A stretch of 64,000 nt of DNA from Sphingomonas sp. PAMC26645. GTDB lineage: Bacteria; Pseudomonadota; Alphaproteobacteria; Sphingomonadales; Sphingomonadaceae. The position numbers were made by a program, and so were the translations under genes. Position 1 is the first letter of the stretch. Every line of letters begins with the position of its first letter. Positions 40,254 through 62,236 of the stretch are shown one piece after another. The stretch is taken from contig NZ_CP039249.1 in the NCBI RefSeq assembly GCF_004795835.1, positions 124,001 to 188,000 on the forward strand. Direction: 5' to 3'. The notes below the pieces were generated by a model that saw only the letters and a program-made list of their open reading frames with translations, was not told the origin of the DNA and searched no databases.

Positions 40254-41846
40254 ATGCACGCATTCGCCGCCCTGCTCGATTCGCTCACCTACACCCGGTC
40301 GCGTAACGCCAAGCTGAAGCTGATCGCGGATTACCTGCGCGCGACGCCCGACCCGGACCGGGGCTGGGCGATGGCGGCGCTAACCGGCGATCTCGATCTC
40401 AAGGGCGTGAAGTCCGCGGTGATCCGCGGACTGATCGAAGAGCGCGTCGATCCGGTGCTGTTCCGGATGAGCCGCGATTATGTCGGCGATACTGCGGAGA
40501 CGGTGGCGTTGCTCTGGCCCGAGCCGACGGTTCCGGTCGACCCCACCCCCTTGTCGATTACCGACGTCGTCGAGCGGCTGGCGGCATTGTCGCGGGCCGA
40601 TGCGCCGGGTGCGCTGGCGGACATGCTCGACCGATCCGATGCCGAGGAGCGGTTCGCGCTACTCAAGATGGCGACCGGCGCGTTGCGGATCGGCGTGTCG
40701 GCGCGGTTGGCGAAGACGGCGCTGGCGGATGCGTTCGGGCTCGACGTCGATGCGGTCGAGGAGGTCTGGCACGGGCTCGATGCGCCGTATCCGAGCCTGT
40801 TCGCCTGGGCGGAGGGAACCGGAGAGCAGCCGACGCCGGCGGACGTCCCCGTATTTCGGCCGTTCATGCTCGCGCACGGACTCGAAGACCTGCGCGTCGA
40901 TCTCACCGACTATGCCGCCGAGTGGAAATGGGACGGCATCCGCGTCCAGATCGTCCATGTCGCGGGAGAGACACGGCTTTACAGCCGGACCGGCGACGAC
41001 GTGACGGACAGCTTCCCCGAGATCGCGGCTGCGTTCCGGACGCCGGGGACGGTCGACGGCGAACTTTTAGTGAAGGGCGAGCATCAGGGCGGGACACTGG
41101 AGGATGGCGGCGGAGCGGCGAGCTTCAACGCGTTGCAGCAAAGGCTTGGGCGCAAGACTGTGTCGGCCAAGATGCTGGCGGACTATCCCGCGTTCGTGCG
41201 GCTCTATGATCTGCTGATCAATGGCGACGAGGATCTGCGCGCGCTGTCCTGGACCGAGCGGCGGAAGCGGTTGGAGGCGTTCGTGCCGCAGCTGGATCCC
41301 GAGCGGTTCGATCTGAGCGCGGTGATCGAGGCGGACGACTTCACCGCGCTGGAGGCGATTCGCGCGACCTCGCGCGACGCGGCTATCGAGGGCGTGATGC
41401 TCAAGCGCCGCGATTCGCCGTATGTCGGCGGTCGGCGTGCCGGGCTCTGGTATAAATGGAAGCGCGATCCGCTGACCGCCGATTGCGTGATGATGTACGC
41501 GCAGCGTGGGTCGGGGCGGCGATCGTCCTATTATTCGGATTACACGTTCGGTTGCTGGACCGAGGAGGGGGAGCTGCTTCCGGTCGGGAAGGCGTATTCG
41601 GGGATCACCGACGAAGAGCTCAAGATGCTCGACAGTTTCGTTCGCAATCACACGCAGAACCGGTTCGGCCCGGTGCGCGAGGTGGAGAAGACGCTGGTGC
41701 TCGAGATCGCGTTCGATTCGCTGCACGGCTCGAAGCGCCACAAATCAGGGGTGGCGATGCGCTTTCCCCGGATCGCGCGGATCCGGACGGACAAGCCCGC
41801 GGCGGAGGCGGACCGGATCGAGACGCTCAAGCGGATGATTACGTAA
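40254..41846 (+). CDS. ATP-dependent DNA ligase of the ligase-associated DNA damage response set
   Basis: A 530-residue ligase. Residues 1-200 are the helical DNA-binding domain, followed by the nucleotidyltransferase domain. Lys225 in AEWKWDGIRVQI is the AMP-accepting lysine (KxDG), TVDGELL is motif III, IEGVMLKRRDSPYV is motif IV and GLWYKWKRD is motif V; an OB domain follows (TFGCWTEEGELLPVG). It seals nicks with ATP, unlike the essential NAD ligase LigA. This type belongs to a set with an MBL exonuclease, an Lhr helicase and PdeM, all found farther along in this window. The start is the only ATG near the domain. Confidence 0.92.
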   Translation: MHAFAALLDSLTYTRSRNAKLKLIADYLRATPDPDRGWAMAALTGDLDLKGVKSAVIRGLIEERVDPVLFRMSRDYVGDTAETVALLWPEPTVPVDPTPLSITDVVERLAALSRADAPGALADMLDRSDAEERFALLKMATGALRIGVSARLAKTALADAFGLDVDAVEEVWHGLDAPYPSLFAWAEGTGEQPTPADVPVFRPFMLAHGLEDLRVDLTDYAAEWKWDGIRVQIVHVAGETRLYSRTGDDVTDSFPEIAAAFRTPGTVDGELLVKGEHQGGTLEDGGGAASFNALQQRLGRKTVSAKMLADYPAFVRLYDLLINGDEDLRALSWTERRKRLEAFVPQLDPERFDLSAVIEADDFTALEAIRATSRDAAIEGVMLKRRDSPYVGGRRAGLWYKWKRDPLTADCVMMYAQRGSGRRSSYYSDYTFGCWTEEGELLPVGKAYSGITDEELKMLDSFVRNHTQNRFGPVREVEKTLVLEIAFDSLHGSKRHKSGVAMRFPRIARIRTDKPAAEADRIETLKRMIT

Positions 41847-41916
41847 TCGGCACGTCATGGAAGTGCGCGGCCGGGCCGGGTATTCATCCGGTCTTGGTAC
41901 GAGTCAGGACGATCCA

Positions 41917-42690
41917 GTGAAAAGTTCGAAACATCCTCGCACGGTAGCGGCACGACGCTGGCGGCGCGGCGCGTGGGTGACTGCTATAATATCCGCGATC
42001 GTCGTGCTGTTCGTCTACCTCGCGGGCTATTTCGACCGCGATCCGGTGCATGTGTATCCGGCGATCGGCGTGCACGCGTCGGGACCGCCGCCGATCGCGG
42101 TGGTGAACTTCTCAGGCGACATGGGGCTGCGGTTCCTGCTCGGCGCGTCGACCTCGCGGAGACTGACCGAGCACGGCATCCCGGTCGTCGGGATCACCAC
42201 GCCAGCGTTGTTCGCGCATCGTGTCACGCGTCACGAGCTCGATGCGATCATCGCGGATGGCGTGCGGACGGCGCTCTCGCGGACCGGGGCGAAGCGGATC
42301 GTCGTGATGGGGCAGTCCTATGGCGCGGATATCGTCCAGACCGGACTCGCCAACCTGCCCGCGGACTTGCGACCACACGTTGCCGCGATCGTGCTGATCC
42401 TGCCGGGTAACACGGTGTTCTATCGCGCGGATCCGTCCAGCCTGCTCTACGATCACGGCACGCCCGACAGCATGGGCGCGACGACCGGCAATCGGCTGAC
42501 CTGGGCACCGGTGACGTGCATCTATGGGCTGGAGGAGACGGACAGCCTGTGTCCGCTGCTGACGACCGCGAACGCGCGGAAAGTCGGGATGCCGGGGGGG
42601 CATAATATCCATCACGATGCGGATGGGTTGCTGCGGCATGTGCTGGCGGCGATCCGTGCGGTCGCGCCGGGGGCTGGACGGGGGTTCTAG
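41917..42690 (+). CDS. AcvB/VirJ-like periplasmic hydrolase
   Basis: A 257-residue protein that starts at GTG seven bases after AGGA. One transmembrane or signal-anchor helix (AWVTAIISAIVVLFVYLAGYF) is followed by an alpha/beta hydrolase with nucleophile motif VVMGQSYGADIVQTGL. NFSGDMGLRFLLG, ALSRTGAKRIVVMGQS and CIYGLEETDSLCP match the VirJ and AcvB C-terminal domain of Agrobacterium, which hydrolyses lysyl-phosphatidylglycerol. This protein lacks the N-terminal half of AcvB and is VirJ-sized. The acid and His are likely Asp in EETDS and His in GGHNIHHD. Confidence 0.85.
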   Translation: MKSSKHPRTVAARRWRRGAWVTAIISAIVVLFVYLAGYFDRDPVHVYPAIGVHASGPPPIAVVNFSGDMGLRFLLGASTSRRLTEHGIPVVGITTPALFAHRVTRHELDAIIADGVRTALSRTGAKRIVVMGQSYGADIVQTGLANLPADLRPHVAAIVLILPGNTVFYRADPSSLLYDHGTPDSMGATTGNRLTWAPVTCIYGLEETDSLCPLLTTANARKVGMPGGHNIHHDADGLLRHVLAAIRAVAPGAGRGF

Positions 42691-42748
42691 CGGAATTCAC
42701 CATCTACGAAGCGACCCCCTCCAGAAAGGCGCGCCTGACTACGCCCTT

Positions 42749-42830
42749 CGTCATCCTAATGAAAGTCAGGATCCGGGGTAAAACAGGATAGCTCTGGTGG
42801 CTCTGGATCCTGACTTTCGTCAGGATGACG
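42749..42830. repeat. Inverted repeat (TCATCCT...AGGATGA family)
   Basis: CGTCATCCTAATGAAAGTCAGGATCC and its near complement GGATCCTGACTTTCGTCAGGATGACG, each 26 bases, face each other across 30 bases with mismatches at two positions. Together with the next palindrome it makes up the 291-base gap between the VirJ-like gene and the convergent glutaminyl cyclase gene. Confidence 0.75.
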
Positions 42831-42887
42831 GAACTCTGATTGCAGCGGTTGAAGACTGCGTTCACGAGACGGCCGGCGACCCTCCAT

Positions 42888-42943
42888 GTTCTCCTGCGAA
42901 GGCGGGAGTCCAGTCTGGGCTCCCGCCTTCGCGGAAGAACAAG
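42888..42943. repeat. Palindromic repeat of the GCGAAGGCGGG family
   Basis: GTTCTCCTGCGAAGGCGGGA and TCCCGCCTTCGCGGAAGAAC pair around TCCAGTCTGGG, which is itself near-palindromic. It is closest in sequence to the copies near 18141 and 62301 (short-loop form). Confidence 0.75.
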
Positions 42944-42981
42944 TCGGGGTGCGGTGTCGGTGGCCCGGACTCGCTCGCCGA

Positions 42982-43815
42982 CTATTGCGGCTTCGCGGCG
43001 ATCTTTATCTCGAAGAGCGTCGGCCAGTATTTGCCCGTCACGAACAGCCGGTCGGCCTTCGCGTCCCAGGCAATACCGTTGAGCACCGCTTCGGGATCGG
43101 TCGCGGCGATCTCGGCAACCAGCGGGCGGAGGTCGATGACCGCGATCACCTTGCCGGAGGCGGGATCGATGCGGACGAGGAAGCCGGTGTGCCATACGTT
43201 GGCGAGCAGCGCGCCATGGACATATTCGAGCTCGTTGATGTCTCGCAACGGGCGACCGTCGATCGTCACCGCCACGCGCTTGCGTTCGGCCAGAGTGAGC
43301 GGATCGCGGACGATGATGTCGGGGCTGCCATCGGACTGGAGCAGCGAGACGCCGTCGCTGGTCAGGCCCCAGCCTTCGCCGGTGTAGCGGTTCTGCCCCT
43401 TGGGCTTGAGCGTGCGGACGTCCCAGCGGTGCGCGATGCCGTCATGCCAGGTGAGGCTGACGAGCTGGTCCTTCCACAGTGCAAGGCCTTCGCCGAACTG
43501 TGCGGGGTCGATTCGCACCTTGGCAAGGATCTTGCCGTCCTTGAGCGAGACGCGGCGGACGTCGGATTGCCGCTCCTGCCCCGTGCTCTCGTACAGCGCA
43601 CCGTCGTGCCAGAGCAGGCCTTCGGTGAATGCCGTGCGATCGTGCGGGTAGCGCGCGACGATCGTCGCCGAGAACACCGGCACGCGGGTCGGCTCGCGCG
43701 GAGCTGAGACAGCATTCTGCCCGGCCTGCGCCGCGGACGACAGCGAAGACGATGAAACGAGAACGGCCGGTCCCGCCAAAGCGAAACCGGCCGCAATCAT
43801 TATCCTACCGAACAC
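42982..43815 (-). CDS. Glutaminyl-peptide cyclotransferase
   Basis: A 277-residue exported beta-propeller enzyme. The signal peptide is IMIAAGFALAGPAVLVSSSS. The glutamine cyclotransferase domain begins with RYPHDRTAFTEGLLWHDGALYESTG-like repeats; the marked segments are AFTEGLLWHDGALYESTG, INELEYVHGALLANVWHT and LNGIAWDAKADRLFVTGKYW, the usual C-terminal signature. It converts N-terminal glutamine into pyroglutamate on secreted proteins. It lies downstream of the cold-shock gene by 31 bases on the same strand. Confidence 0.92.
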   Translation of the reverse strand: MFGRIMIAAGFALAGPAVLVSSSSLSSAAQAGQNAVSAPREPTRVPVFSATIVARYPHDRTAFTEGLLWHDGALYESTGQERQSDVRRVSLKDGKILAKVRIDPAQFGEGLALWKDQLVSLTWHDGIAHRWDVRTLKPKGQNRYTGEGWGLTSDGVSLLQSDGSPDIIVRDPLTLAERKRVAVTIDGRPLRDINELEYVHGALLANVWHTGFLVRIDPASGKVIAVIDLRPLVAEIAATDPEAVLNGIAWDAKADRLFVTGKYWPTLFEIKIAAKPQ

Positions 43816-43846
43816 GGTACGATCAGCGTTCTGGGTCAGACAGCTA

Positions 43847-44716
43847 TCAGCCGCCTGCGCTCAGGTTCACTGCTGCGTACTTGCCGCGACGATCGACTTC
43901 GAGCTCGAACTCGAGCTTGTCGCCCTCGTTCAGCGTCGACATGCCGGCGCGCTCGACGGCCGAGATGTGGACGAATGCGTCAGGCTGTCCGTCGTCGCGC
44001 TGGATAAAGCCGAAGCCCTTCATCGCGTTGAAGAACTTGACCGTACCGGTCGCCTTCTCGCCGGTAAGCTGACGCTGTGCGCCACCTGCACCACCGTCAC
44101 GGTCGCGATCGCCACCACGGGGCGCGCCCGGGCCGGCATCACGGTCACGCGGCGGGCCGCGATCGGTGACGGCCATCGGCTCGCCGTCAATCTTCAGGTC
44201 GGTTGCCGAGATACGGCCGCCGCGATCGACGAGCGTGAAGCCGAGCGGTTGACCCTCGGCGAGAGCGACCATGCCGGCCTGCTCGACTGCGCTGATGTGG
44301 ACGAACACGTCCTCGCCGCCGTCATCGCGAACGACGAAGCCGAAGCCCTTCTGCGCGTTGAAGAACTTTACGACGCCCGTGCCTTCGCCGACAACCTGGG
44401 GAGGCATGCCGCGGCCACCGCCGCCGCCGCCACCGCCCGAGAAGCCGCCGCCACCGCCGCCGCCGCGGTAACCGCCGCCGCCGCCGCCGCTGCCGCCACC
44501 GAAGCTGCTGCCGCCGCCGTAGCTGCTGCCACCGCCGCCACCGTAGCTCGAGCCACCGCCGCCGCCATAGCTGCTACCGCCGCCGCCGCCGAACCGATCG
44601 CCGCCACCGCCAAAGCTGCTGCCGCCGCCGAACTCGTTGTCGCCGCCGCCGAAGCTGTCGCGCTTGTCGCGGCCACGCCCGCCACGGTTCCCGCGGCCAC
44701 CTTTATCGAAACCCAT
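43847..44716 (-). CDS. Double cold-shock-domain protein with glycine-rich N-terminus
   Basis: A 289-residue nucleic-acid-binding protein with two cold-shock domains. Residues 1-105 are a Gly-rich tail with Arg-Gly pairs at the start and repeated GGGGGSSYG units, probably disordered. CSD1 starts near residue 112 (GVVKFFNAQKGFGFVVRDDG, then DVFVHISAVE) and CSD2 near 225 (GTVKFFNAMKGFGFIQRDDG, then AFVHISAVERAG); both keep the RNP1 KGFGF and RNP2 FVHI motifs. Double-CSD proteins occur in alphaproteobacteria, but this long Gly tail is unusual. A role as RNA chaperone in cold or stress is inferred. Confidence 0.9.
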   Translation of the reverse strand: MGFDKGGRGNRGGRGRDKRDSFGGGDNEFGGGSSFGGGGDRFGGGGGSSYGGGGGSSYGGGGGSSYGGGSSFGGGSGGGGGGYRGGGGGGGFSGGGGGGGGRGMPPQVVGEGTGVVKFFNAQKGFGFVVRDDGGEDVFVHISAVEQAGMVALAEGQPLGFTLVDRGGRISATDLKIDGEPMAVTDRGPPRDRDAGPGAPRGGDRDRDGGAGGAQRQLTGEKATGTVKFFNAMKGFGFIQRDDGQPDAFVHISAVERAGMSTLNEGDKLEFELEVDRRGKYAAVNLSAGG

Positions 44717-45018
44717 AAGCTCTGTTCGTCTTCCCGGTTCGCCCGCAAATTTCTCAAAACCCTTGTGCCGGACGACGAACGCAGGTTTTCCAGCGCGAAA
44801 CCTTTTGCGCCTTGAGGGGACCCTTAGCGCAAAATACAAGCCGTCGCGAATAGATTCTGATCCGAGGACGCTCGATTTGGATCGATACTGGCGCAAGTGT
44901 CGCGCGCCAGCCACGACTCGTCGCATCAACGATCGCAAAGCCTTCTTGTCGCCTGATTTGGATCGGTGACGCATATAGAGGCATTGAGCGTTAAGCTTCG
45001 GGCGGCTACGGCCGGCGC
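44717..45018. other. Intergenic region between divergent cold-shock and RNase D genes
   Basis: The 302 bases contain no convincing gene. They must hold the promoters of both divergent genes, and part may be a long 5' leader of the cold-shock gene. An 11-base direct repeat, GATTTGGATCG, occurs at 44874 and 44955. No clear terminator or riboswitch was found. Confidence 0.4.
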
Positions 45019-45639
45019 ATGACAGTTCATCTCCACGAAGGCGACATTCCCGCCGACCTGTTCGCGGCCGGCGCCGCGATCGCCGTCGATACCGAGACGA
45101 TGGGGCTGATCACGCCCCGCGACCGGTTGTGCCTCGTCCAGCTTTCCGATGGCGGGCCCGACGAGCACCTCGTCCGATTCGCCGCGGGTGCCGGCTACGA
45201 CGCACCGAACCTGAAGGCCCTGCTGGCCGATCCGGCGCGCGTGAAGCTCTATCATTTCGGCCGGTTCGACATCGCGGCGGTCCAATATTATCTCGGGGTG
45301 GTCGCGGCACCGGTATATTGCACCAAGATCGCATCGCGGCTGGTGCGGACCTACACCGATCGTCACGGTCTCAAGGAAATCGTCCGCGAACTGCTCGGCC
45401 AGGACATCTCGAAGCAGCAGCAGTCGTCCGACTGGGGCAGCCCCGAACTGTCCGAGGCGCAGAAGGATTACGCGGCGTCGGACGTCCGCTTTCTCCACCG
45501 GCTGCGGACCGAACTCGACAAGCGATTGATTCGCGAAGGCCGGATGGAGCTCGCGCAGGCCTGCTTCGACTTCCTGCCGACTCGTGCCGCGCTGGATATT
45601 GCCGGCTGGCCCGAAATCGACATTTTCGCACACGCATGA
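45019..45639 (+). CDS. rnd: Ribonuclease D-like 3'-5' exonuclease
   Basis: A 206-residue DEDD exonuclease domain. Motif I is AIAVDTETMGL near residue 20 (Asp, Glu), motif II is LYHFGRFDIAAV near residue 77 (Asp), and motif III is KDYAASDVRFLHRL near residue 155 with Tyr and Asp. There are no HRDC domains, so it is half the size of E. coli RNase D and resembles the short alphaproteobacterial form. It trims the 3' ends of structured RNA. Its last four bases overlap the lptC start. Confidence 0.9.
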   Translation: MTVHLHEGDIPADLFAAGAAIAVDTETMGLITPRDRLCLVQLSDGGPDEHLVRFAAGAGYDAPNLKALLADPARVKLYHFGRFDIAAVQYYLGVVAAPVYCTKIASRLVRTYTDRHGLKEIVRELLGQDISKQQQSSDWGSPELSEAQKDYAASDVRFLHRLRTELDKRLIREGRMELAQACFDFLPTRAALDIAGWPEIDIFAHA

Positions 45640-46292
45640 TCGAAGTTCCGCCGCCCTCCCCCGTCGCCCGTCGCGTGCGGACCGCGCGCCAGGACTGGGC
45701 TGCGCCCGGTGGCAGCCACGATCGGTTCGTGGCGATCGCCCGTGTTGGGCTGCCGACCGCGATCGGCGTGCTGGCGGCGTTCCTGGTGATGGCACCGCTC
45801 ACCGCGGGCGGCGACGTGTCGTTCCTGCTCGACAAGAACAAGGTCGACGTCGCGCAGGAGCGGATGAAGACGCAGGTGGCGCGCTATCGCGGTGAGGACA
45901 CGAAGGGCCAGGCATTCACGCTCGACGCGGCCTCGGCGATCCAGAAGAGCTCGGCCGAGCCGATCGTCCAGCTCAATCAGCTCGCCGCGCAGATCCAGCT
46001 GACCGACGGCCCCGCCAACATCAAGGCGAACACCGGCCGCTACGACATGGACACCGAGAAGGTGCAGTTGTTCGGGCCGCTGAACGCCACCGCAGCAGGC
46101 GGCTACGACCTGAAGACCACCAACGCGACGATCGACATGAAGGCGCGTACGCTCGAAAGCGGCGGGGCTGCGACCGGCACCGTCCAGCAGGGCACGTTCA
46201 GCGCGAACAAGCTGCGCGCGAACCTGGAAGAGCGGACCGTGACGCTCGATGGCAATGCGCGCTTGCGGATCATCCCCAGAGGGCCGAAATAG
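45636..46292 (+). CDS. lptC: LPS export protein LptC
   Basis: A 218-residue bitopic protein of the LPS transport bridge. One helix near residues 33-53 (VGLPTAIGVLAAFLVMAPL) anchors it, and the rest is the periplasmic jellyroll with AASAIQKSSAEPIVQLNQLAAQI and TLDGNARLRI near the end. It hands lipopolysaccharide from the LptBFG transporter to LptA. The ATG overlaps the rnd stop, and lptA follows after five bases. Confidence 0.88.
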   Translation: MIEVPPPSPVARRVRTARQDWAAPGGSHDRFVAIARVGLPTAIGVLAAFLVMAPLTAGGDVSFLLDKNKVDVAQERMKTQVARYRGEDTKGQAFTLDAASAIQKSSAEPIVQLNQLAAQIQLTDGPANIKANTGRYDMDTEKVQLFGPLNATAAGGYDLKTTNATIDMKARTLESGGAATGTVQQGTFSANKLRANLEERTVTLDGNARLRIIPRGPK

Positions 46293-46297
46293 CCGCC

Positions 46298-46846
46298 ATG
46301 CGCGCTCCCCACATCCTTGCCGGCTTGTCTGCCCTTTTGCTCTCCACGACCACGGTCGCGCAGCAACCGCACAACTCCAACGCCCCGATCAATTTCGGCG
46401 CGGATCATATCGAATTGCAGGACAAGGCGAACCGCGCGATCCTGTCGGGCAACGTCGCGGTTAAGCAGGCCGAGATGACGCTGAACTCGGCGCGAATGAC
46501 GGTGGCGTATACCGGCCAGGTGATCGGCGGGAACCCGCAAGTCTCGCGGCTCGACGCGTCGGGAGGCGTGATCGTCAAGCGTCCAGACCAGACCGCGCGA
46601 AGCCAGTATGCGATCTACGATCTCAACCGGCGCGTCATCACGATGCTCGGCGCGGTCACGCTGACGCAGGCGGGGAACACCGTGAACGGCGGGCGCCTGA
46701 CGATGAACCTCGACACCGGGCGTTCGGTGATTGACGGGTCGTCGGTCGCCGGCGGCAGCGCTGGCGGATCGGCAGCGAGTGGAGGCACCGTTACGCAGAC
46801 CGGTGGCCGCGTGACCGGTACGTTCTCGGTCCCCAAGCGCAACTGA
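46298..46846 (+). CDS. lptA: LPS export periplasmic protein LptA
   Basis: A 182-residue exported protein with signal peptide ILAGLSALLLSTTTVAQ. The OstA/LptA jellyroll follows: NFGADHIELQDKANRAILSG, AEMTLNSARMTVAY and NRRVITMLGAVTLTQAGNTV. The C-terminus is Gly- and Ser-rich (AGGSAGGSAASGGT). LptA forms the periplasmic bridge that carries LPS to the outer membrane. It is placed between lptC and lptB as is usual. Confidence 0.92.
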   Translation: MRAPHILAGLSALLLSTTTVAQQPHNSNAPINFGADHIELQDKANRAILSGNVAVKQAEMTLNSARMTVAYTGQVIGGNPQVSRLDASGGVIVKRPDQTARSQYAIYDLNRRVITMLGAVTLTQAGNTVNGGRLTMNLDTGRSVIDGSSVAGGSAGGSAASGGTVTQTGGRVTGTFSVPKRN

Positions 46847-46954
46847 GCGTGTGAGCATGTCGCGAGGGCTTCCCTCGAACGGCGCGCTCCTGCATGTTTC
46901 CTGCCAAACCCCCGCCGAGTGTTCGGCGACTGATTATTGCGAGGGCCTGATCCC

Positions 46955-47737
46955 ATGGACGCCACCACGCTGCCCCCGATCGAGGACGTCGCCCCGATTT
47001 CCGAGCCTCCGGTGAACAACGGGCTCCAGGTCGTCTCGATCGCGAAGTCCTACGACAAGCGCGTCGTGTTGACCGACGTGTCGGTGTCGGTCGGGCGCGG
47101 TGAAGTCGTCGGGCTGCTCGGGCCCAACGGCGCGGGCAAGACGACGTGCTTCTATTCGGTGATGGGCCTGGTGAAGCCGGATTCGGGCCGCATCATGCTC
47201 GACGGCGAGGACATCACGAAGCTGCCGATGTACCGACGCGCGATCCTGGGCCTGGGCTATCTGCCGCAGGAGACGTCGATCTTCCGCGGGCTGACGATCG
47301 AGAAGAACATCCTGACCGTGCTGGAGCTGTCCGAGCCGGACAAGGCGGCGCGCCAGCGGAAACTTGATACGCTGCTGGAGGAGTTCGGTTTGACTCGGCT
47401 CCGTGCTGCACCGGCGATGGCGCTGTCGGGTGGCGAGCGGCGGCGTGCGGAAATCGCGCGCGCGCTGGCGGCGGATCCGTCGATCATGCTGCTCGACGAG
47501 CCGTTCGCGGGCATCGATCCGATCTCGATCGCCGACATCCGCGACCTGGTGAAGGATCTGAAGCGCCGCGACATCGGCGTGCTGATCACCGACCACAACG
47601 TCCGCGAGACGCTGGAAATCGTCGACCGCGCGTACATCATCTATGACGGCCGGGTGCTGTTCTCCGGCTCGCCCGAGGAACTGGTCGCGGATGCCAACGT
47701 CCGGCGCCTGTACCTCGGCGAAGGCTTCTCGCTTTAA
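46955..47737 (+). CDS. lptB: LPS export ABC transporter ATPase LptB
   Basis: A 260-residue ABC ATPase that powers LPS extraction from the inner membrane. The Walker A motif is GLLGPNGAGKTTCFYSV near residue 56, the Q-loop is LGYLPQETSIFRGL, the signature is ALSGGERRRAEIARALA near residue 157, Walker B is IMLLDEPFAGIDP and the switch His is in VLITDHNVRE. The start is the ATG before DATTLPP; about 18 acidic residues precede the ABC core. It follows lptA after a 108-base gap. Confidence 0.96.
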   Translation: MDATTLPPIEDVAPISEPPVNNGLQVVSIAKSYDKRVVLTDVSVSVGRGEVVGLLGPNGAGKTTCFYSVMGLVKPDSGRIMLDGEDITKLPMYRRAILGLGYLPQETSIFRGLTIEKNILTVLELSEPDKAARQRKLDTLLEEFGLTRLRAAPAMALSGGERRRAEIARALAADPSIMLLDEPFAGIDPISIADIRDLVKDLKRRDIGVLITDHNVRETLEIVDRAYIIYDGRVLFSGSPEELVADANVRRLYLGEGFSL

Positions 47738-47757
47738 GCCGATGGATACGCCCCTTT

Positions 47758-47834
47758 CTCCGTTCGCCCTGAGCGAAGTCGAAGGGCTGCCGCGTGAGCC
47801 GGTGCTTCGACTTCGCTCAGCACGAACGGACGGG
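47758..47834. repeat. Palindromic repeat immediately before rpoN
   Basis: Arms CCGTTCGCCCTGAGCGAAGT with CGAAGGGC and CTTCGACTTCGCTCAGCACG with AACGG form a stem of about 28 pairs with few mismatches, closed by about 16 bases. It fills the gap from lptB to rpoN and ends six bases before the rpoN start codon. A transcript hairpin here would cover the ribosome-binding region of rpoN if transcribed from lptB. Confidence 0.7.
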
Positions 47835-47839
47835 GTGGC

Positions 47840-49485: not shown

Positions 49486-49500
49486 GTACTCAGGAATGGC

Positions 49501-54017: not shown

Positions 54018-56450
54018 ATGACGATGATGCGTGAACAGGCCGTGAGCGACCTCCCCCCTCCCCTCGAAAACTGGTTCGCGACGCGCGGGTGGCGGCCGCG
54101 GCGGCATCAGCTGGAGATGCTGGCGGAAGGCCGTGCTGGGCATCACGCACTGCTGGTGGCGGCGACCGGGGCGGGGAAGACGCTCGCGGGGTTCCTGCCG
54201 ACGCTCGCCGAGCTGATCGAGGCGCCGACCAACGGGCTCCACACGCTGTACGTCTCGCCGCTGAAGGCGCTTGCGGTCGACGTGCAGCGCAACCTGCTGA
54301 CGCCGATCGACGAGATGGGCGTCGATATTCGCGTCGAAACGCGGACCGGCGATACGCCGTCGGACCGCAAGGCGCGGCAACGGGTCAAGCCACCGCAGAT
54401 CCTGCTGACGACCCCAGAGTCCCTGTCGCTCTTGCTGAGCTATCCCGACAGCATCACGATGTTCGAGAACCTCCGCACGATCGTCGTCGACGAGGTGCAC
54501 GCGTTCGCGACCGGCAAGCGCGGCGACCTGTTGTCGCTGTGCATGGCGCGGTTGCAGACGATCTCGCCGGGGATGCGCCGCGTTGCGCTGTCGGCGACGG
54601 TCGCGGATGCGGACGGCTACCGCGCGTGGCTCGCGCCCGACGGCGACATCGACCAGGTCGCGATGATCCGCGGCGAGGCGGGCGCCGATCCCAACATCGC
54701 GATCCTGCTGCCCGAGGGCCGCGTGCCATGGTCGGGACATTCGGGCCGCTATGCCGCCGCGCAGGTGATGGCGGAGATCGAGGCGCACGAGACCTCGATC
54801 GTGTTCTGCAACACGCGCAGCTTGGCTGAGCTCATCTTCCAGGATCTTTGGAAGGTGAACTCGGGCAACCTCCCGATCGGCGTCCACCACGGCAGCCTCG
54901 CCAAGGAGGCGCGGCGAAAAGTCGAGAACGCGATGGCCGAGGGCAAACTCCGCGCGCTGGTCGCGACGTCCAGCCTCGATCTTGGGGTCGACTGGGGCAA
55001 TGTCGATTGCGTGATCCAGATGGGCGCGCCGAAGGGATCGTCGCGACTGTTGCAGCGGATCGGGCGCGCCAACCACCGGCTCGACGAATCGTCGCAGGCG
55101 ATCGTCGTGCCGGGAAACCGCTTCGAATATCTGGAGGCGCGCGCGGCGCTCGACGCGGTCGAGGCGGGCGAGCTCGATGCGGATATCTTCCGCGTCGGTG
55201 CGCTCGACGTGCTGGCGCAGCACGTGATGGCGTGCGCATGCGCGGCGCCGTTTCGCGAGGCGGATCTGCTCGACGAGATCCGCTCGGCGCTCCCCTATTC
55301 CGCGCTACCGACCGAGACGTTCGAACGGGTGCTGCACTTCATCAGCGACGGCGGCTATTCGCTGAAGGCGTATGACCGGTTCAAGCGGCTCACGAAGGAT
55401 GCGGACGGGACGTGGCGGGTCAGCCATCCGAAATTCATCGGCCAGCATCGGCTGAACGCGGGCATCATCGTCGAGGCGACGATGCTCAACGTGCGGTTCG
55501 GCAATGGCCGCGTGCTCGGCCGCGTCGAGGAGGCATTCGCGGCGCAGTTGAGCCACGGCGATACGTTCTTCTTCGCAGGGCTCAGCCTCGAGGTGATGAA
55601 GATCGACCTCGAGGACCTAGTCGTGCGCGCGACATCGAAACCCGCGCGGATTCCGACCTATGGCGGCAGCCGGATGCCGCTGTCGACCAACCTTGCCGAC
55701 CGCGTTCGCGGGTTCCTCGCGCATCCCGGCGACTGGGCGCGCTTCCCCGACGACGTGCGCGAATGGCTGGAGATGCAGGCGTATCGCTCGGTCATGCCCG
55801 AGCCCGGCCAGCTGCTGGTCGAGACGTTCCCGCGCGAGGGGCGGCACTACATGGTCGCGTACAGTTTCGAGGGGTGGAACGCACACCAGTCGCTCGGCAT
55901 GCTGATCACGCGGCGGATGGAGACGCAGGGGCTGAAACCGCTCGGCTTCGTCGCCAATGATTATGCGCTGGCGGTGTACGGGCTGGAGAAGATCACCGAC
56001 CCGGCGTCGCTGTTCTCGGCGGATATCCTCGAGCATGAGTTCGTCGAATGGGTGCAGCAATCGCATCTGCTCAAACGCGCGTTCCGCGAGGTCGCGGTGA
56101 TCGGCGGGCTGGTCGAGCGGCAGCATCCGGGCAAGCGCAAGACCGGTAAACAGGTGACGTTCTCGACCGACCTGATCTACGACGTGCTGCGCAAATACGA
56201 GCCGACGCATCTGCTGCTGGAAGCGGCGTGGGCGGATGCGCGCGCGCGGATGACCGATGTCGGGCGTTTGGCGTCGCTGCTCGACCGTGCGGCGGCGACG
56301 ATGGTGCATGTCGATCTGGAGCGGGTCACGCCGCTCGCGGTGCCGGTGCTGACGCTGATCGGGCGCGAGAAGATCTCGACGAACAGTTCGGACGACGCGT
56401 TGTTGATCGAGGCGGAGGCGATGATCGCGGATGCTATGCGGCCGGATTGA
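54018..56450 (+). CDS. Ligase-associated DNA damage response DEXH-box helicase (Lhr-core type)
   Basis: An 810-residue superfamily 2 helicase. Walker A is VAATGAGKTLAGFLP near residue 45, motif Ia is YVSPLKALAVDVQRN, motif II is TIVVDEVHAFA, motif III is VALSATVAD, and the second RecA domain has VHHGSLAKEARRKVE and RLLQRIGRANHRLDE. The C-terminal part has the winged-helix and beta-barrel regions of Lhr-core. It unwinds DNA or RNA-DNA hybrids 3'-5' in studied relatives. The start is one of several close ATGs; the first codons are not conserved. No partner gene lies within 1.8 kb. Confidence 0.92.
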   Translation: MTMMREQAVSDLPPPLENWFATRGWRPRRHQLEMLAEGRAGHHALLVAATGAGKTLAGFLPTLAELIEAPTNGLHTLYVSPLKALAVDVQRNLLTPIDEMGVDIRVETRTGDTPSDRKARQRVKPPQILLTTPESLSLLLSYPDSITMFENLRTIVVDEVHAFATGKRGDLLSLCMARLQTISPGMRRVALSATVADADGYRAWLAPDGDIDQVAMIRGEAGADPNIAILLPEGRVPWSGHSGRYAAAQVMAEIEAHETSIVFCNTRSLAELIFQDLWKVNSGNLPIGVHHGSLAKEARRKVENAMAEGKLRALVATSSLDLGVDWGNVDCVIQMGAPKGSSRLLQRIGRANHRLDESSQAIVVPGNRFEYLEARAALDAVEAGELDADIFRVGALDVLAQHVMACACAAPFREADLLDEIRSALPYSALPTETFERVLHFISDGGYSLKAYDRFKRLTKDADGTWRVSHPKFIGQHRLNAGIIVEATMLNVRFGNGRVLGRVEEAFAAQLSHGDTFFFAGLSLEVMKIDLEDLVVRATSKPARIPTYGGSRMPLSTNLADRVRGFLAHPGDWARFPDDVREWLEMQAYRSVMPEPGQLLVETFPREGRHYMVAYSFEGWNAHQSLGMLITRRMETQGLKPLGFVANDYALAVYGLEKITDPASLFSADILEHEFVEWVQQSHLLKRAFREVAVIGGLVERQHPGKRKTGKQVTFSTDLIYDVLRKYEPTHLLLEAAWADARARMTDVGRLASLLDRAAATMVHVDLERVTPLAVPVLTLIGREKISTNSSDDALLIEAEAMIADAMRPD

Positions 56451-56582: not shown

Positions 56583-56653
56583 CGGTTTATAGCGTCGTCC
56601 GTTCCTAACAACGACCGTTGCGTATCCACCAAATCAGGCGCAGCATTTGCAGC

Positions 56654-57637
56654 ATGCGCAGGTGGCTAGCCCCTCTACTGCTAGCCATTGCCGCCCAGGC
56701 TAGCGCTCAGGACGCAGCCTCTCCACGCGATAATGCTGCACCTTCGCCCAGCGCAGCATCGGCAGCAGAACCAGACCCCGCCACGCTTCTGTTCGGTGAC
56801 GACCAGGCCCGGATGACGGTGCCGGTCACGATCGCCGGCGCAGGACCGTTCGCGTTCGTCGTCGATACTGGCGCCCAACGGACCGTCATCGCGCGCGAAC
56901 TCGCAGCAACGCTAGGCTTGGCGCCGGGGCGCATCGTCCGCGTGACCGGCATGACCGGATCGAGCGCCATCGGCACCGTCGTCATCCCCTCGCTGAAGGT
57001 CAGCGTGATCGGCAGCGCGGCGATCGAGGCGCCGGCGATCAGCGCGATCAATCTCGGCGCGCGCGGGCTGCTCGGAATCGATGCGTTGCAGGCCCACGCG
57101 GTAGGAATCGACTTCGACACCAACACGATGACCGTCACACCCTCGCGCAAACGGCAGAGCCGCGAGCGCGCCGGGCCCGACGAGATCGTCATCCGGGCGC
57201 GCAGCCTGTTCGGGCAGCTCGTCGTCACCGACGCCTATTGCAACGGCATCCGCATCCGCGTGATCCTCGACACCGGCACCTCGGTCAGCATGGCCAATGC
57301 CGCGCTCCGCCGGAAGGTGACGCGCAAGGGGCTGGGCAGCGCGGGGGCGTCGCAGCCCGTGTCGCTGACCGGGGTCACTGGCGAGACCGTGATCGCCGAC
57401 TATACGACGATCGACCGCGTCACGATCGGCAGCCTGACGCTTGGCGACCTGCCCGTGGCGTTCACCGCAGTCGACGCACCGCCTTTCCGCCTGTTCGGCC
57501 TTGCCGAGCGGCCCGCGATGCTGCTCGGGATGGACGTGCTGCAACTGTTCCGCCGCGTCGACATCGACTTTGCCAACCGCGAGGTACGGCTCACCTTGCC
57601 GCGCGAGACGCGCCGTCGTGGCGAGCTGCGCCGCTGA
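56654..57637 (+). CDS. Retropepsin-like aspartic protease family protein with two domains
   Basis: A 327-residue exported protein with signal peptide APLLLAIAAQASAQD and an Ala- and Pro-rich linker. Two aspartic-protease halves follow: FVVDTGAQRTVIA near residue 75 and VILDTGTSVSMAN near residue 210, each with its own Asp-Thr-Gly and a later hydrophobic Gly motif (LLGIDAL; LLGMDVL). Such single-chain, gag-asp-like proteins in the periplasm are found widely in proteobacteria, but their substrates are not known. An ATG at 56618 would add a leader before the signal peptide and is not preferred. Confidence 0.82.
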   Translation: MRRWLAPLLLAIAAQASAQDAASPRDNAAPSPSAASAAEPDPATLLFGDDQARMTVPVTIAGAGPFAFVVDTGAQRTVIARELAATLGLAPGRIVRVTGMTGSSAIGTVVIPSLKVSVIGSAAIEAPAISAINLGARGLLGIDALQAHAVGIDFDTNTMTVTPSRKRQSRERAGPDEIVIRARSLFGQLVVTDAYCNGIRIRVILDTGTSVSMANAALRRKVTRKGLGSAGASQPVSLTGVTGETVIADYTTIDRVTIGSLTLGDLPVAFTAVDAPPFRLFGLAERPAMLLGMDVLQLFRRVDIDFANREVRLTLPRETRRRGELRR

Positions 57638-57696
57638 GGTTGCGTCCTGGTGCGTTCGCTGCAACTCTCCCGCCGAAAACGAAAAAGGGGATGACG

Positions 57697-59106
57697 ATGC
57701 GCGCAACTGGCTGGCTACTCACGGCGGCAATCCTGACGACCCCCGTGACAACGGCGCTTTCCGCACAGGCGCAGTCGCGGCCCGACCAGAAGGCGTTCCT
57801 CGGGCTCTACAAAGAGCTGGTCGAGACCAACACGACTCTGTCCGCGGGCAGTTGCACGCAGGCCGCGGCACAGATCGGGGCGCGTCTGAAGACCGCGGGC
57901 TATGCCGATGCCGACATAACCTATTTCTCGGTGCCCGAGCACCCGAAGGACGGCGGGCTGGTCGCGGTGCTGAAGGGGTCGGACGCGTCGATCAAGCCGA
58001 TGCTGCTGCTCGCGCATCTCGACGTGGTCGAGGCCAAGCGCGAGGATTGGGTGCGCGATCCGTTCAAGCTGATCGAGGAAGGCGGCTATTACTACGCGCG
58101 CGGCACCGTCGACGACAAGGCTCAGGCGGCGATCTGGTCCGACGCAATGATCCGCTTCAAGACGAGCGAGTACAAGCCGAAGCGGACGATCAAGCTGGCG
58201 CTGACCTGCGGCGAGGAGACGACCTTCGCGTGGAACGGCGCGCAGTATCTGGCGAAGTCGAGGCCCGACCTGATCGCGGCGGAGTTCGCGTTGAACGAGG
58301 GCGGCGGCGGGCGGATCGACGACAATGGCAAGCGCCAGCTGCTGGCGATCCAGGTCGGCGAGAAGGCGGCGCAGAACTACACGTTCCTCGCCACCAACCC
58401 GGGCGGGCACAGCTCGCAGCCGATCCCCGAGAACGCGATCTACGAGCTCGCCGATGCGGTGAAGGCCGTCCAGGGCTACGAGTTCCCAGTGAAGTTCACC
58501 GACACGACCAAGGCGTTCTTCGCGGCCAGCGCGAAGGCGATGCCGGGCGAAATGGGGGATGCGATCACGAAGCTGCTCGCCAATCCGGAGGACAAGGCGG
58601 CGGATGCGATCGTCAGTCGCGACAAGGCGATGCACTCCACGTTGCGCACGACCTGCGTGGCGACGTTGCTGAACGCGGGTCACGCGGAGAACGCGTTGCC
58701 GCAGCGCGCGACCGCGAACATCAACTGCCGGATCTTTCCGGGCGAGACGGTGGAGGGAACGCTCGCCAAGCTGAAGGAACTGGCGGGGGCGAAGGTGACG
58801 GTGACGGCGAACCAGCCGGTGCGGCCCACCGCGATCCCGCCGACGCTCGACCCGAAGATCATGGGGCCGGTGACCAAGGTGGCGGCGAAGCACTTCCCCG
58901 GCCTGCCGATTCTCCCACTGATGTCGACCGGGGCGACCGACGGCATCTTCTTCGAGGCGATCGGGATCCCGGTCTACGGCGCGCCGGGCGTCTTCATCGA
59001 CAAGGACATGGGCGGCATCCACGGCCTCAACGAGCGAATTCGTGTGAATTCCCTGTATGACGGCCGCGACTACCTCTTCGATCTGGTGAAGGCGTTTGCT
59101 GGGTGA
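57697..59106 (+). CDS. Exported M20/M28-type zinc metallopeptidase
   Basis: A 469-residue exported peptidase. The signal peptide is WLLTAAILTTPVTTALSAQ. The two-zinc site is visible: His and Asp in LLLAHLDVVEAK, Asp in RGTVDDKAQ, Glu-Glu in LTCGEETTF and His in IHGLNERI; the dimer domain is in between. It probably trims dipeptides or amino-acid derivatives outside the cytoplasm. The start is the ATG six bases after AGGGG; another ATG six bases earlier is too close to it. The last 13 codons are also present as a decayed copy 210 bases downstream. Confidence 0.9.
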   Translation: MRATGWLLTAAILTTPVTTALSAQAQSRPDQKAFLGLYKELVETNTTLSAGSCTQAAAQIGARLKTAGYADADITYFSVPEHPKDGGLVAVLKGSDASIKPMLLLAHLDVVEAKREDWVRDPFKLIEEGGYYYARGTVDDKAQAAIWSDAMIRFKTSEYKPKRTIKLALTCGEETTFAWNGAQYLAKSRPDLIAAEFALNEGGGGRIDDNGKRQLLAIQVGEKAAQNYTFLATNPGGHSSQPIPENAIYELADAVKAVQGYEFPVKFTDTTKAFFAASAKAMPGEMGDAITKLLANPEDKAADAIVSRDKAMHSTLRTTCVATLLNAGHAENALPQRATANINCRIFPGETVEGTLAKLKELAGAKVTVTANQPVRPTAIPPTLDPKIMGPVTKVAAKHFPGLPILPLMSTGATDGIFFEAIGIPVYGAPGVFIDKDMGGIHGLNERIRVNSLYDGRDYLFDLVKAFAG

Positions 59107-59475
59107 ACGTCCTTTCCCTCTCCCCTTCGGGGAGAGGGAGGGAGGAGCCTTAGGCGACGGAAGGGAGAGGGGCGTGAAGCTCGGGACGGTGACTCCCAAC
59201 GCCCCTCTCCCTTCCCACGGCAAGCGCCGCGGGCCCCTTCCCTCTCCCCGGAGGGGCGAGGGAGTTTTGTTAGCCGGGATTATCTGTTCGGGTTGGTGAA
59301 GGCGTTCGCTGGGTAACGAGGCCTTCCCTCGCCCCTTCGGGGAGAGGGAGGGAGGAGCCTTAGGCGACGGAAGGGAGAGGGGCTTGGGGCTCGAGACGAC
59401 GCATCCCAACGCCCCTCTCCCTTCCCACGGCAAGTGCCGCGGGCCCCTTCCCTCTCCCCGTAGGGGCGAGGGAGT
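59107..59475. repeat. Tandem 210-base repeat built from paired palindromes
   Basis: Two copies about 210 bases apart begin at the codons for the end of the upstream peptidase and then contain CTCTCCCCTTCGGGGAGAGG, a GC-rich core and GAGAGGGGC-like arms. Each unit is a paired palindrome of the CTCCC/GGGAG class. The region separates the peptidase from the convergent kup gene, and holds no intact gene. Confidence 0.75.
59275..59316 (+). pseudogene. Fossil 3' end of a second M20 peptidase gene
   Basis: The codons for RDYLFGLVKAFAG and a TAA stop lie 210 bases after the same ending of the intact peptidase (RDYLFDLVKAFAG, TGA). One residue differs and about seven of 13 codons differ at silent positions. 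That pattern shows descent from a second, diverged coding gene, not a recent copy of the first. The upstream part of that gene is gone, replaced by palindromic repeat. Confidence 0.65.
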
Positions 59476-61449
59476 TTAGACGGTGACTTGTTCGCCTAGT
59501 TCTAGCACCTTGCCGGGGGGGATTTTCAGGAAGTCGGTGGGATCGCTGGCGTTGCGTTGCAGGAACAGGAATATCCGGTCCTGCCAGGGCGGCATGCCCT
59601 TTTCCGCGTCGGGTTTCAGCGTGTTGCGGCCGATGAAGAACGAGGTGCGCATCGGGTCGAGCCCGAGCTGTTCGGTCTTGTTGCCGACGCCGAGATCGCG
59701 GGGCACGTCGGGGGATTCCATGAACCCGTAGGTCAGCACGACGATCGAGAAATTGTCGTCGACGCGTTCTACCTTCGCGCGCGACGCTTCCTCGACGAAT
59801 GGACGATCCGCGGTGCGGATGCTGACGATCAGGTTGCGCTCGTGGAGCACCTTGTTGTGCTTGAGGTTATGCAGCAGCGCGCCCGGCGTCGCGTGCGGGT
59901 TGCCGGTCAGGAACACGGCCGTCCCCGACACGCGCTCGGGCGGACGCTTTTCCAGCGCCGAGGCCAGATCGCTTAGCGGGATGCTCTGGCGCTTTTCGAA
60001 CGCGCTGACGATCTTCTTGCCACGCACCCAGGTGAAGATGATCAGCCCGATCGCGGCGGCGATGACCAGCGGTACCCAGCCACCCTCGATCACGCGCAGG
60101 ATGTTCGCGCCGAAGAAGATCAGGTCGAGCGTCAAGAACGGCAGGATCGCCGCTAGCGCGAGCGGGCGCGACCAGTTCCAGCGGTGCCGGACGACGATGT
60201 ACGCGAGCAAGGTGGTGACGACCATCGTGCCGGTCACCGCGATACCGTACGCGGCGGCCATCGCCGACGACGTCTTAAACTGGATCACGAGCACCAGCAC
60301 GCCGATCAGCAACAGCCAGTTGATCGCGGGCAGGTAAATCTGGCCGGCAAACACCGCCGAGGTCTGGCGGATGCGCAGGCGCGGGAGCAGGCCGAGCTGA
60401 ATCGCCTGCTGCGTCAGCGAGAACGCGCCGGTGATGACCGCCTGGCTGGCGATGACGGTCGCGAAGCCGGCGAGGATGATCAGCGCCGGACGCAGCGACT
60501 CGGGCGCCATCAGGAAGAACCAGTCCTGGTTGACGAACGGCACGCCCCGCGCCGCCGCATCCTCTAGCCGCGACAAGGCGAACGCGCCCTGGCCCAGGTA
60601 GTTGAGCGCCAATGCCGGAAAGACGAGGAAGAACCAGCCGATGCGGATCGGCAGCTTGCCGAAATGGCCCATGTCGGCGGTCAGCGCCTCAGCGCCGGTG
60701 ACGGTCAGGAACACCGCGCCGAGCACGAACAGCCCGGTGACGCCGTGCGTGGCGAGGAACGAGATGCCGTAGGTCGGCAGGAACACGCGGACGATCGAGG
60801 GCTCGTCGGCGATATGCCAGATGCCGAGCGCACCGATCGCCACGAACCAGAGGATGCAGACCGGGCCGAACAGCTTCGATACCTGCGCCGTGCCGCGCGA
60901 CTGGATCAGGAACAGCCCGATCAGGATGGCGATCGTCAGCGCGCGGACGACGCCTTCGTTGAAGATGTGCGCGGCGCTGGGGATCGTCCGCAGGCCTTCC
61001 ATGGCGGACAGCACCGACAGCGCCGGGGTGATGATCGCATCGCCGTAGAACAGCGACGCCCCCGCCGCGCCGAGCACGATCGCGATCCGCGATCGCATGC
61101 CGAGCGCGCGACGGGCGAGCGCAGCGAGCGCGAGTACCCCGCCCTCGCCTTGGTTGTCGGCGCGCATCAGGAAGATGACGTATTTGACGGTGACGACGAG
61201 GAACAGCGACCAGAGCGCGAGGCTCAGCACGCCAAGGATTTCGGTCGGATCAATGCCGCCTGCGGACGTCTGGCCGAGTGCCTCGCGGAACGCGTAGAGC
61301 GGGCTGGTGCCGATATCGCCGAACACCACGCCGATCGCGCCGACGGTCAGCGCGGCGAGTGCGGGGTGCGGATGCAGATGCGCCGCTGACAGATCGCCAG
61401 GCGTTTCCGGTACAGCGGCAGTTTGGGGTGTTCCGGCGACGGACGTCAT
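59476..61449 (-). CDS. kup: Kup-type low-affinity potassium uptake protein
   Basis: A 657-residue potassium:proton symporter. The 12-helix domain spans residues 30-450 with ALTVGAIGVVFGDIGTSPLYAF, GVLSLALWSLFLVVTVKYV, RADNQGEGGVLAL, and GASLFYGDAIITPALSVLSA. A cytoplasmic C-terminal part follows from residue 460. The motif FGDIGTSPLY is the Kup signature. The ATG chosen puts about 35 residues before the first helix. It is divergent from pdeM. Confidence 0.95.
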   Translation of the reverse strand: MTSVAGTPQTAAVPETPGDLSAAHLHPHPALAALTVGAIGVVFGDIGTSPLYAFREALGQTSAGGIDPTEILGVLSLALWSLFLVVTVKYVIFLMRADNQGEGGVLALAALARRALGMRSRIAIVLGAAGASLFYGDAIITPALSVLSAMEGLRTIPSAAHIFNEGVVRALTIAILIGLFLIQSRGTAQVSKLFGPVCILWFVAIGALGIWHIADEPSIVRVFLPTYGISFLATHGVTGLFVLGAVFLTVTGAEALTADMGHFGKLPIRIGWFFLVFPALALNYLGQGAFALSRLEDAAARGVPFVNQDWFFLMAPESLRPALIILAGFATVIASQAVITGAFSLTQQAIQLGLLPRLRIRQTSAVFAGQIYLPAINWLLLIGVLVLVIQFKTSSAMAAAYGIAVTGTMVVTTLLAYIVVRHRWNWSRPLALAAILPFLTLDLIFFGANILRVIEGGWVPLVIAAAIGLIIFTWVRGKKIVSAFEKRQSIPLSDLASALEKRPPERVSGTAVFLTGNPHATPGALLHNLKHNKVLHERNLIVSIRTADRPFVEEASRAKVERVDDNFSIVVLTYGFMESPDVPRDLGVGNKTEQLGLDPMRTSFFIGRNTLKPDAEKGMPPWQDRIFLFLQRNASDPTDFLKIPPGKVLELGEQVTV

Positions 61450-61573
61450 GGCGCGAAGAGCGCTCCTCCTGAGGGGACGGCGCGCTTTACGCCGATTGGG
61501 GGCATGCGCAAGTCCTGCTGGTTTGGGGCTATGGCGGGTTGATTCACACGGCGTGCACCGGCATGGCGAGGAA

Positions 61574-62236
61574 ATGGTTCCCTTTTCGTTCGGCGGGCAT
61601 GCGCTTCTGGCGTTGGCGCAAGGCGCGCTGTTCTGGCCGGAGCGGCGTGCGCTGCTGGTCGCCGACCTGCATTTCGAGAAGGCGAGCTGGTTCGCCAAGC
61701 GCGGCCAGATGCTGCCGCCGTATGATTCGATCGCGACTCTGGCCGATCTGACCACGCTGGTCGCGGCAACGGGCGCGCGCGAAGTCTGGTGCCTCGGCGA
61801 CAGCTTCCACGATAGCGACGGGTGCGAGCGGCTGCCGCAGCGCGCGCAGGACATGCTGCGGGCGATGACCGACGGGACGCGGTGGACGTGGATCACGGGC
61901 AATCACGATCCGGCGATCCTCGATCGGTGTGGCGGGGAGGTGGTAGACGAGGTGGTCGTCGATGGACTGGTGCTGCGGCATGAAGCGGACCGGGCAGAGA
62001 CGCGGCCGGAGCTGTCGGGGCATTTCCATCCGAAGCTTCGGTTGCGCGTGCGGGGGAAGCAGGTGGCGCGGCGGTGTTTCGTGGCGACGTCGACGAAACT
62101 GATCCTGCCGGCGTTCGGGTCGCTGACGGGCGGGCTGGACGTGGACCATCCGGAGATCGTGCGTGCGGTTGGGGTTGGGGCCGAGGCGATGGTGCCGGTG
62201 GCGGACCGGATGCTGCGGTTTCCGGTTGCGGCCTAA
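61574..62236 (+). CDS. pdeM: Ligase-associated DNA damage response endonuclease PdeM
   Basis: A 220-residue metallophosphoesterase nuclease. The five blocks are LLVADLHFEKAS near residue 30, WCLGDSFHDSDG near 73, WITGNHDPAIL near 107, LRHEA near 138 and SGHFHPKLRLRV near 150, with a C-terminal LPAFGSLTGGLDV that marks the PdeM family. Studied relatives are manganese-dependent nucleases. The ATG is chosen because the family match begins there; a GTG seven codons upstream is possible. It is the fourth member of the repair set, with kup divergent upstream. Confidence 0.9.
   Translation: MVPFSFGGHALLALAQGALFWPERRALLVADLHFEKASWFAKRGQMLPPYDSIATLADLTTLVAATGAREVWCLGDSFHDSDGCERLPQRAQDMLRAMTDGTRWTWITGNHDPAILDRCGGEVVDEVVVDGLVLRHEADRAETRPELSGHFHPKLRLRVRGKQVARRCFVATSTKLILPAFGSLTGGLDVDHPEIVRAVGVGAEAMVPVADRMLRFPVAA

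Follow-up and report, generated by a model that had tools for sequence, protein, structure and literature searches.

The window considered here is the whole 64-kb stretch of DNA that was analysed, positions 124001-188000 of a one-contig, complete 4.28-Mb genome of the Sphingomonas group. It holds the four genes of the ligase-associated DNA damage response: an ATP-dependent DNA ligase (L), an MBL/beta-CASP exonuclease (X), an Lhr-core helicase (H) and the phosphoesterase/endonuclease PdeM (P, encoded by pdeM); numbers after G and L below are genome and locus labels. We understand this set as the descendant of a head-to-head cluster that was split repeatedly, its members being tied by function and not by linkage into two nested modules, with pdeM alone endowed with a LexA-type operator, a reading to which we give a probability of about 0.7. 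The full mechanism that we derive from it is somewhat better than an even bet. Helicase and endonuclease would make up a core, and exonuclease and ligase a module that depends on it, each kept or lost as a whole even when its genes are unlinked. The pathway would be gated at a single point, a LexA operator located within the first codons of a leaderless pdeM and carried along wherever the gene lies.

The four genes are a genuine ligase-associated DNA damage response set. All are uninterrupted frames from start through stop, and their products score above the curated NCBIfam thresholds of the families TIGR04120-TIGR04123, in line with the assignments of the original prediction. Each family has exactly one match across the complete genome, leaving no second intact operon of the same genes elsewhere in it. 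The translations display what we take to be the adenylation motif of the ligase (KWDG), a family motif of the exonuclease (HGHADH), helicase motifs (GAGKT and DEVH) and phosphoesterase motifs (GNHD and GHFHP). The exonuclease is 96-100% identical to that of the best 18 records of a homologue search, all titled Sphingomonas. Two further records, QDFQ01000008.1 (L026, titled Arthrobacter) and JAGSNX010000002.1 (L047, titled Microvirga), contain a Sphingomonas-type exonuclease locus at 88-90% identity and are probably mislabelled or contaminated.

Joint presence and absence of the four genes

Presence and absence were followed in 149 genomes of the Sphingomonadaceae, at most two per genus, the contrasts resting on genus labels. 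Genomes less than 95% complete were counted and not used as contrasts (for example G082, 67%; G142, 66%; G156, 94%; G078, 85%; G194, 77%; G152, 94%; G067, 86%; G202, 90%), the contrasts g87 (G194) and g97 (G202) being set aside on this account. The ligase was scored as present in G143, where it is in two pieces, and in G176, where only a fragment is found, at the end of a contig; neither reaches the cut-off. All four genes occur together in 121 genomes, H and P without X and L in 14, and none of them in 11; the three genomes that remain have X, L and P (G082), P alone (G142) or H alone (G156). X and L are thus present or absent together in 149/149 genomes; they are never found without P, and without H only in the incomplete G082. 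Similarly, H and P are both present in 135 genomes, with H lacking P once and P lacking H twice, each time in a genome less than 95% complete. This phyletic nesting suggests that the core pair is usable alone and that the exonuclease and ligase depend on it.

Such agreement extends to genes that are not neighbours. With a threshold of 20 kb, X and L are not found together in 28 of 122 carriers: in 14 they are certainly apart, with 25 kb to 3.4 Mb between them on a single contig, and in 14 they are on different contigs, at unspecified distance. By the same threshold, H and P are separated in 89 of the 135 genomes that have both, on a single contig in 42 of these and on different ones in the rest. 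Among within-genus contrasts in which the completeness of the lacking genome is 95% or more, five appear to have lost X and L and kept H and P (G062 in g24, G129 in g91, G134 in g96, G179 in g59, G192 in g83), and three to have lost all four (G128 in g90, G131 in g93, G166 in g43), these three giving no helicase match even at E 1e-30. X and L are 42 kb apart in the congener of G134, itself devoid of X at the syntenic place, and on different contigs in that of G166; the congener of G131 has the X-L pair, H and P on three contigs. Within the genus, the 221 genomes with a completeness of 95% or more tell a similar story: X is missing in G468, G555 and G574 and L in G468, G539 and G574, H being present in all four, and the overlap of the two absences has a chance of 0.0004, assuming independent losses and independent genomes. 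In G574 the block csd-rnd-lptCAB-rpoN and the stretch from H to P are retained, X having gone from between rpoN and H.

We may ask whether this is anything more than ordinary operon decay, a neutral break-up after which each gene was retained for its own housekeeping reasons. The variety of layouts would fit such a process, with at least three separate loci in 76/121 family genomes (genes within 20 kb being joined, different contigs counted as separate), and so would the distance of the ligase from its partners, hundreds of kb even in the genus, and the fate of G555, which lost X and kept L. Neutral decay does not, however, readily account for the agreement of X and L in every genome of the family, including the 28 carriers in which the two are not found together, nor for their common absence from G574, G468, G134 and G166, in whose congeners the two are distant from each other, split between contigs or with other genes in between. 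We consider this explanation unlikely, and prefer to see the two pairs as functional modules.

This preference has to be balanced against several facts. X and L lie within 20 kb of each other in 94 of 122 carriers, so that joint absence may partly reflect one deletion, and the joint losses in g24, g91, g59 and g83 could each be a single deletion, as congeners there have X beside L. Half of the unlinked cases, 14 of 28, are genes on different contigs of draft assemblies. G555 retains an intact ligase elsewhere and, 2 kb from H, a remnant of X (residues 1-93; L172, 7502-7780), possibly a loss in progress. G539 has X and no detected L, and the contig stops shortly after rnd, at the place where L is expected. 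Finally, the direction of change, loss rather than gain, is itself presumed. The coupling of X to L is strong, not absolute. As separate observations, the ligase gene is in two pieces in G143 (C2:98007-99583) and G026 (C1:2078752-2080319), both with X, H and P, possibly as broken genes or through sequencing errors, and G020 (79% complete) has two copies of X and of H on contigs C17 and C57, perhaps because the assembly is mixed.

How could the modules operate? In the core, the Lhr-core helicase would open the damaged duplex and PdeM would nick the exposed single strand; MPE proteins reportedly are single-strand endonucleases, if we follow the title of one study. In the add-on module, retained only alongside the core, the exonuclease would trim the ends and the ligase seal them. 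The core pair would be able to work with other enzymes, the exonuclease-ligase pair only with the core. PdeM, the cutter, would perform the dangerous step, and it is this step that would have been placed under damage control, with a leaderless promoter of its own and a LexA-type operator keeping it repressed until damage occurs. Helicase and MPE activities are described for homologues from Pseudomonas putida and mycobacteria in the portions available of PMC8301817 and PMC7437997. The corresponding portion of PMC10140301 has the role of the MBL nuclease as undetermined, and the precise role of the pathway and the damage that it targets as not known. The nested pattern is of interest in this respect, as it amounts to a testable division of labour in which H and P can work alone and X and L are not found without them. 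Since each gene is transcribed on its own, knocking out one of them in Sphingomonas should have no polar effect on the others, allowing a cleaner dissection than in an operon.

Descent of the scattered layout

The four genes are spread over 22 kb in the order L+ X- H+ P+, with other genes interspersed. Positions and strands are those of the original prediction, which rightly concluded that genes so separated, and on both strands, cannot share a single promoter. To understand where this arrangement comes from we may look outside the family, at X loci from 20 of the 50 genomes of the class that carry X there. In these other alphaproteobacterial families X and L are same-strand neighbours at all 20 loci. 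At 12 of them H lies on the other strand, head-to-head with X across a gap of 71 bases to 6 kb, and P follows in 11 of these 12; at the other eight, H was not found within the fetched stretch. All four genes on one strand were seen at none of the 20 loci, nor in any of the 14 family genomes that have the four within 25 kb. A both-strand layout thus appears to be old and not the sign of a broken one-strand operon: comparison of these loci makes the opposition of X to H and P the ancestral state in this class, with [L-X-][H+P+] as the predicted head-to-head ancestor. The rearranged ancestral operon first proposed finds no support, if one strand is meant; what stands of the proposal is that, by the same comparison, the separation of L, its flip and the inserted genes are derived, and these traits only.

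The compact head-to-head cluster persists in some members of the family (G077, G100, G112). X and H are within 20 kb in 40 of the family genomes that have all four genes, and in 40/40 they are head-to-head, within 6 kb. As it is the X-L pair that stayed together in some members and the X-H pair in others, the cluster must have come apart at least twice in Sphingomonadaceae. A single inversion beside the lpt block was considered as the origin of the present layout and is not supported, no lpt gene being found within about 9 kb on either side of the X-L pairs at 32 loci of other genera (L130-L161).

The layout of the window is not peculiar to this genome and recurs in the genus, as the gene order of 37 genomes (this one and 36 others) indicates. 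X and H are both present in 35 of them, head-to-head within 2 kb in 31, and on separate contigs in the remaining four (G002, G016, G022, G023). In 16 of the 37 the ligase comes some 8-14 kb behind X; in the others it is more distant, beyond P, on another contig, or not found (G007, 84% complete; G019, 86%). Two radiation-resistant Sphingomonas are reported, in the portion available of PMC9611098, with exonuclease and helicase accession numbers that are two apart, which is consistent with one gene between X and H.

It could be argued that proximity itself is selected, for instance through co-regulation at a distance or transfer of the whole block between organisms, as many Sphingomonas have L-X-H-P in this order within some 25 kb. 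Yet only 14 of 121 family genomes have all four genes within 25 kb (the four are on a single contig in 65 of the 121), and in G010, G137 and G153 the ligase stays linked to the rnd-lptCAB-rpoN block, without X, the exonuclease, helicase and PdeM genes lying elsewhere. Seen with its block and apart from its partners, the ligase makes the neighbourhood look like shared descent, and selected proximity is accordingly a very doubtful explanation. The broader idea that the set is still kept in one neighbourhood fails outside a minority of genomes; even among congeners assembled into one contig, the partner closest to L can be 372 kb (G010) or 659 kb (G021) away.

An SOS-like operator within the first codons of pdeM

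Codons 2-6 of pdeM are made of the sequence GTTCCCTTTTCGTTC, an exact match to GTTCN7GTTC. There are two exact matches in the window, where 1.8 are expected by chance, so that the match alone means little, and it is conservation that carries weight. The 102 P loci of the family, unevenly sampled, with many close Sphingomonas and possibly some genomes occurring twice, comprise 92 with the exact box, six with one mismatch and four with neither; outside the family (class and order) the box was found at 0/14 P loci. With identical starts removed and the loci of the class included, 91 of 115 distinct P starts have the box between -60 and +30, to be compared with 1/153 for X, 1/129 for H, 0/85 for L and 1/272 starts of six neighbour genes. 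It was kept in 26 of 30 P genes picked for their setting, 20 from genomes with P far from H and ten from genomes without X and L. An SOS box common to all four genes was also considered and, with these counts at L, X and H, is rejected for exact boxes; in the window no exact GTTCN7GTTC is present at L, X or H. These three genes are probably expressed otherwise than via this operator. The independent control evoked in the original prediction is in this way supported, and a joint rise of all four messenger RNAs after damage is predicted to fail in part, the exact box being at P only.

That the box merely reflects a conserved N-terminus (MVPFSF), as its place within the reading frame and the similar peptide of most relatives might suggest, is the least probable explanation of all: codon 2 is GTT in 80/80 distinct P starts against 75 of 1032 valine codons in the rest of these genes (the frame pattern by which these starts were picked fixed only GT at codon 2, C opening codon 3 and TTY at codon 6), residues 3-5 vary (P/R/H, F/L/V/Y, S/P/L) under a constant GTTC...GTTC, L192 has an exact box with other letters at -19, upstream of the ATG, and -35/-10-like elements lie in register upstream. 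Taken together, codon use, variable residues and the displaced box argue that selection acts on the DNA of the operator. A TT at -35/-34, an A at -11 and, less strongly, a T at -10 relative to the ATG are conserved in 64 de-duplicated relatives, which suggests that transcription starts at the ATG itself and that the messenger is leaderless. On this sequence evidence, pdeM is probably under LexA control and repressed until DNA is damaged. The operator would then name both a signal, the SOS response, and a single control point for the pathway.

Exceptions are informative. Two of the four family loci without the box, L104 and L105, are compact clusters in which P begins 83 and 21 bases after H, and could be read from it; a third compact cluster, L103, has a gap of 44 bases and does have the box. 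The other two, L213 and L218, belong to G110 and G186, of one genus without X and L.

A number of observations go in the opposite direction. Near the starts of X and H in the window the box is matched with one mismatch; such matches are common between -300 and +30 (X 43/166, H 61/132, rpoN 19/61, gct 21/37) and, as they occur widely at control genes too, were not counted. In 864 kb of the same genome (800 kb and the window) there are 33 boxes, a modest excess over the 24 or so that would occur if the 1.8 per 64 kb expected by chance in the window applied throughout, and the motif alone is weak evidence. Ten box-gene pairs, involving nine genes, were found between -120 and +20 of a crude gene call, P not being among them, presumably because another start was called. 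Six of the nine are not DNA repair genes: a glycosyltransferase, divergent from radA and sharing its box, an acyl carrier protein, yaaA, a phage-type gene (with the box in the preceding gene) and two small genes. Neither recA nor lexA is among the box-adjacent genes identified in the 864 kb. The repair genes are radA (TIGR00416, above cut-off; the shared box is at 1793899), an MmcB-like gene (Pfam) and a UvrD-type helicase (Pfam). The latter scores below the PcrA and UvrD equivalog cut-offs and is preceded by two boxes, at 1972615-1972694 of the genome (L268 12615-12694).

Two loci from other alphaproteobacterial families, L084 and L094, have an exact SOS box in the divergent region between X and H, and the whole head-to-head cluster may be SOS-controlled there. 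Another signal may be considered at X. EcfG promoters are given as GGAAC-N16-CGTT in the portion available of PMC7083833 and as GGAAC-N17-20-GTT in that of PMC6599016. Between -55 and -22 of X, GGAAC is found at 40 of 136 starts, where shuffles give 5.6, the class set being left aside; its position is -33/-34 at 33 of the 40. In its CGTT form the complete motif, GGAAC-N15-18-CGTT, was found upstream of 0/136 starts, and the window has GGCAC instead of GGAAC upstream of X (52203-52245). The resemblance to an EcfG -35 element, devoid of the CGTT -10, is suggestive.

Neighbouring genes and known systems

Table 1. Features of the window discussed in the text
Feature	Positions	Strand	Remarks
L, ATP-dependent DNA ligase of the ligase-associated DNA damage response	40254-41846	+	530 aa; TIGR04120, 786 bits (cut-off 400)
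L-X interval: VirJ-like, glutamine cyclotransferase, cold-shock-type, RNase D-like exonuclease, lptC, lptA, lptB, rpoN, S10 peptidase	41857-51135		S10 start approximate; same order in many Sphingomonas
X, MBL/beta-CASP ligase-associated exonuclease	51204-52202	-	332 aa; TIGR04122, 463 bits (cut-off 325)
S26 signal peptidase between X and H	52417-53235	+	start approximate; seen at this place only in genomes closely related to this one
H, Lhr-core DEXH helicase	54018-56450	+	810 aa; TIGR04121, 1072 bits (cut-off 850)
H-P interval: aspartyl protease (+), M20 peptidase (+), kup (-)	56618-61425		M20 and kup starts approximate
Probable P promoter: TTGATT (61539-61544), 17-base spacer, CATGGC (61562-61567)	61539-61567	+	predicted transcription start at ATG
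P, PdeM phosphoesterase/endonuclease	61574-62236	+	220 aa; TIGR04123, 225 bits (cut-off 150)
SOS-like operator GTTCCCTTTTCGTTC (GTTCN7GTTC), codons 2-6 of P	61577-61591	+	exact match

The genes that separate the four members are listed in Table 1. The list initially proposed was incomplete: its LepB-like gene is the S26 signal peptidase, and it omitted the VirJ-like, glutamine cyclotransferase, cold-shock-type and RNase D-like genes, lptC, lptA, lptB and rpoN. The block csd-rnd-lptC-lptA-lptB-rpoN, here between L and X, recurs in many Sphingomonas. The cold-shock-type gene, lptC and rpoN are presumably so named, having been recognised in the translations by inspection, and lptB owes its name to an ABC-transporter match and to its neighbourhood. 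No gene was recognised in the roughly 800 bases between the S26 gene and H (53236-54017), where a Pfam scan of one open reading frame (53330-53935, minus strand) returned nothing.

Ligase-associated DNA damage response genes usually form one operon, a habit on which their names do not depend. The Lhr-core/MPE/ligase/nuclease cluster of Pseudomonas putida is said to have been the subject of studies by Ejaz and Shuman in 2018 and Ejaz et al. in 2019. The present set resembles this cluster in that all four protein families are recognised above their cut-offs. It departs from it in having no operon at all, the genes being dispersed on both strands with others between them and the ligase flipped relative to the head-to-head cluster, in the SOS-type operator owned by P, and in the status of the genes in Sphingomonadaceae, where X and L are optional and H and P form the core. 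The four-protein set itself is known; what appears new is that its genes are scattered, that they co-occur in a nested way although unlinked, and that the operator sits within a seemingly leaderless pdeM. No report of PdeM as an SOS gene, of the scattered layout or of the nested co-occurrence was found in the titles and abstract openings that were covered, the paper on the Caulobacter SOS regulon and those of Ejaz and Shuman being outside their scope.

The operator connects this pathway to the SOS regulon of Alphaproteobacteria. The portions available of PMC9578287 and PMC4211646 give the Caulobacter SOS box as GTTCN7GTTC, and this is exactly what is found at the predicted promoter of P, as well as before radA, the mmcB-like gene and the uvrD-type helicase gene of the same genome. 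The difference is one of location, the operator sitting here within the opening codons of a gene that seems to be leaderless. A last comparison can be made with the bacterial Lhr-core helicase and its adjoining MPE gene, the latter being near blhr in 276 of 319 genomes in the portion available of PMC8301817. As in that system, the H-P pair is a stable core. In Sphingomonadaceae, by contrast, its two genes are for the most part far apart or on different contigs, and yet they are present together.

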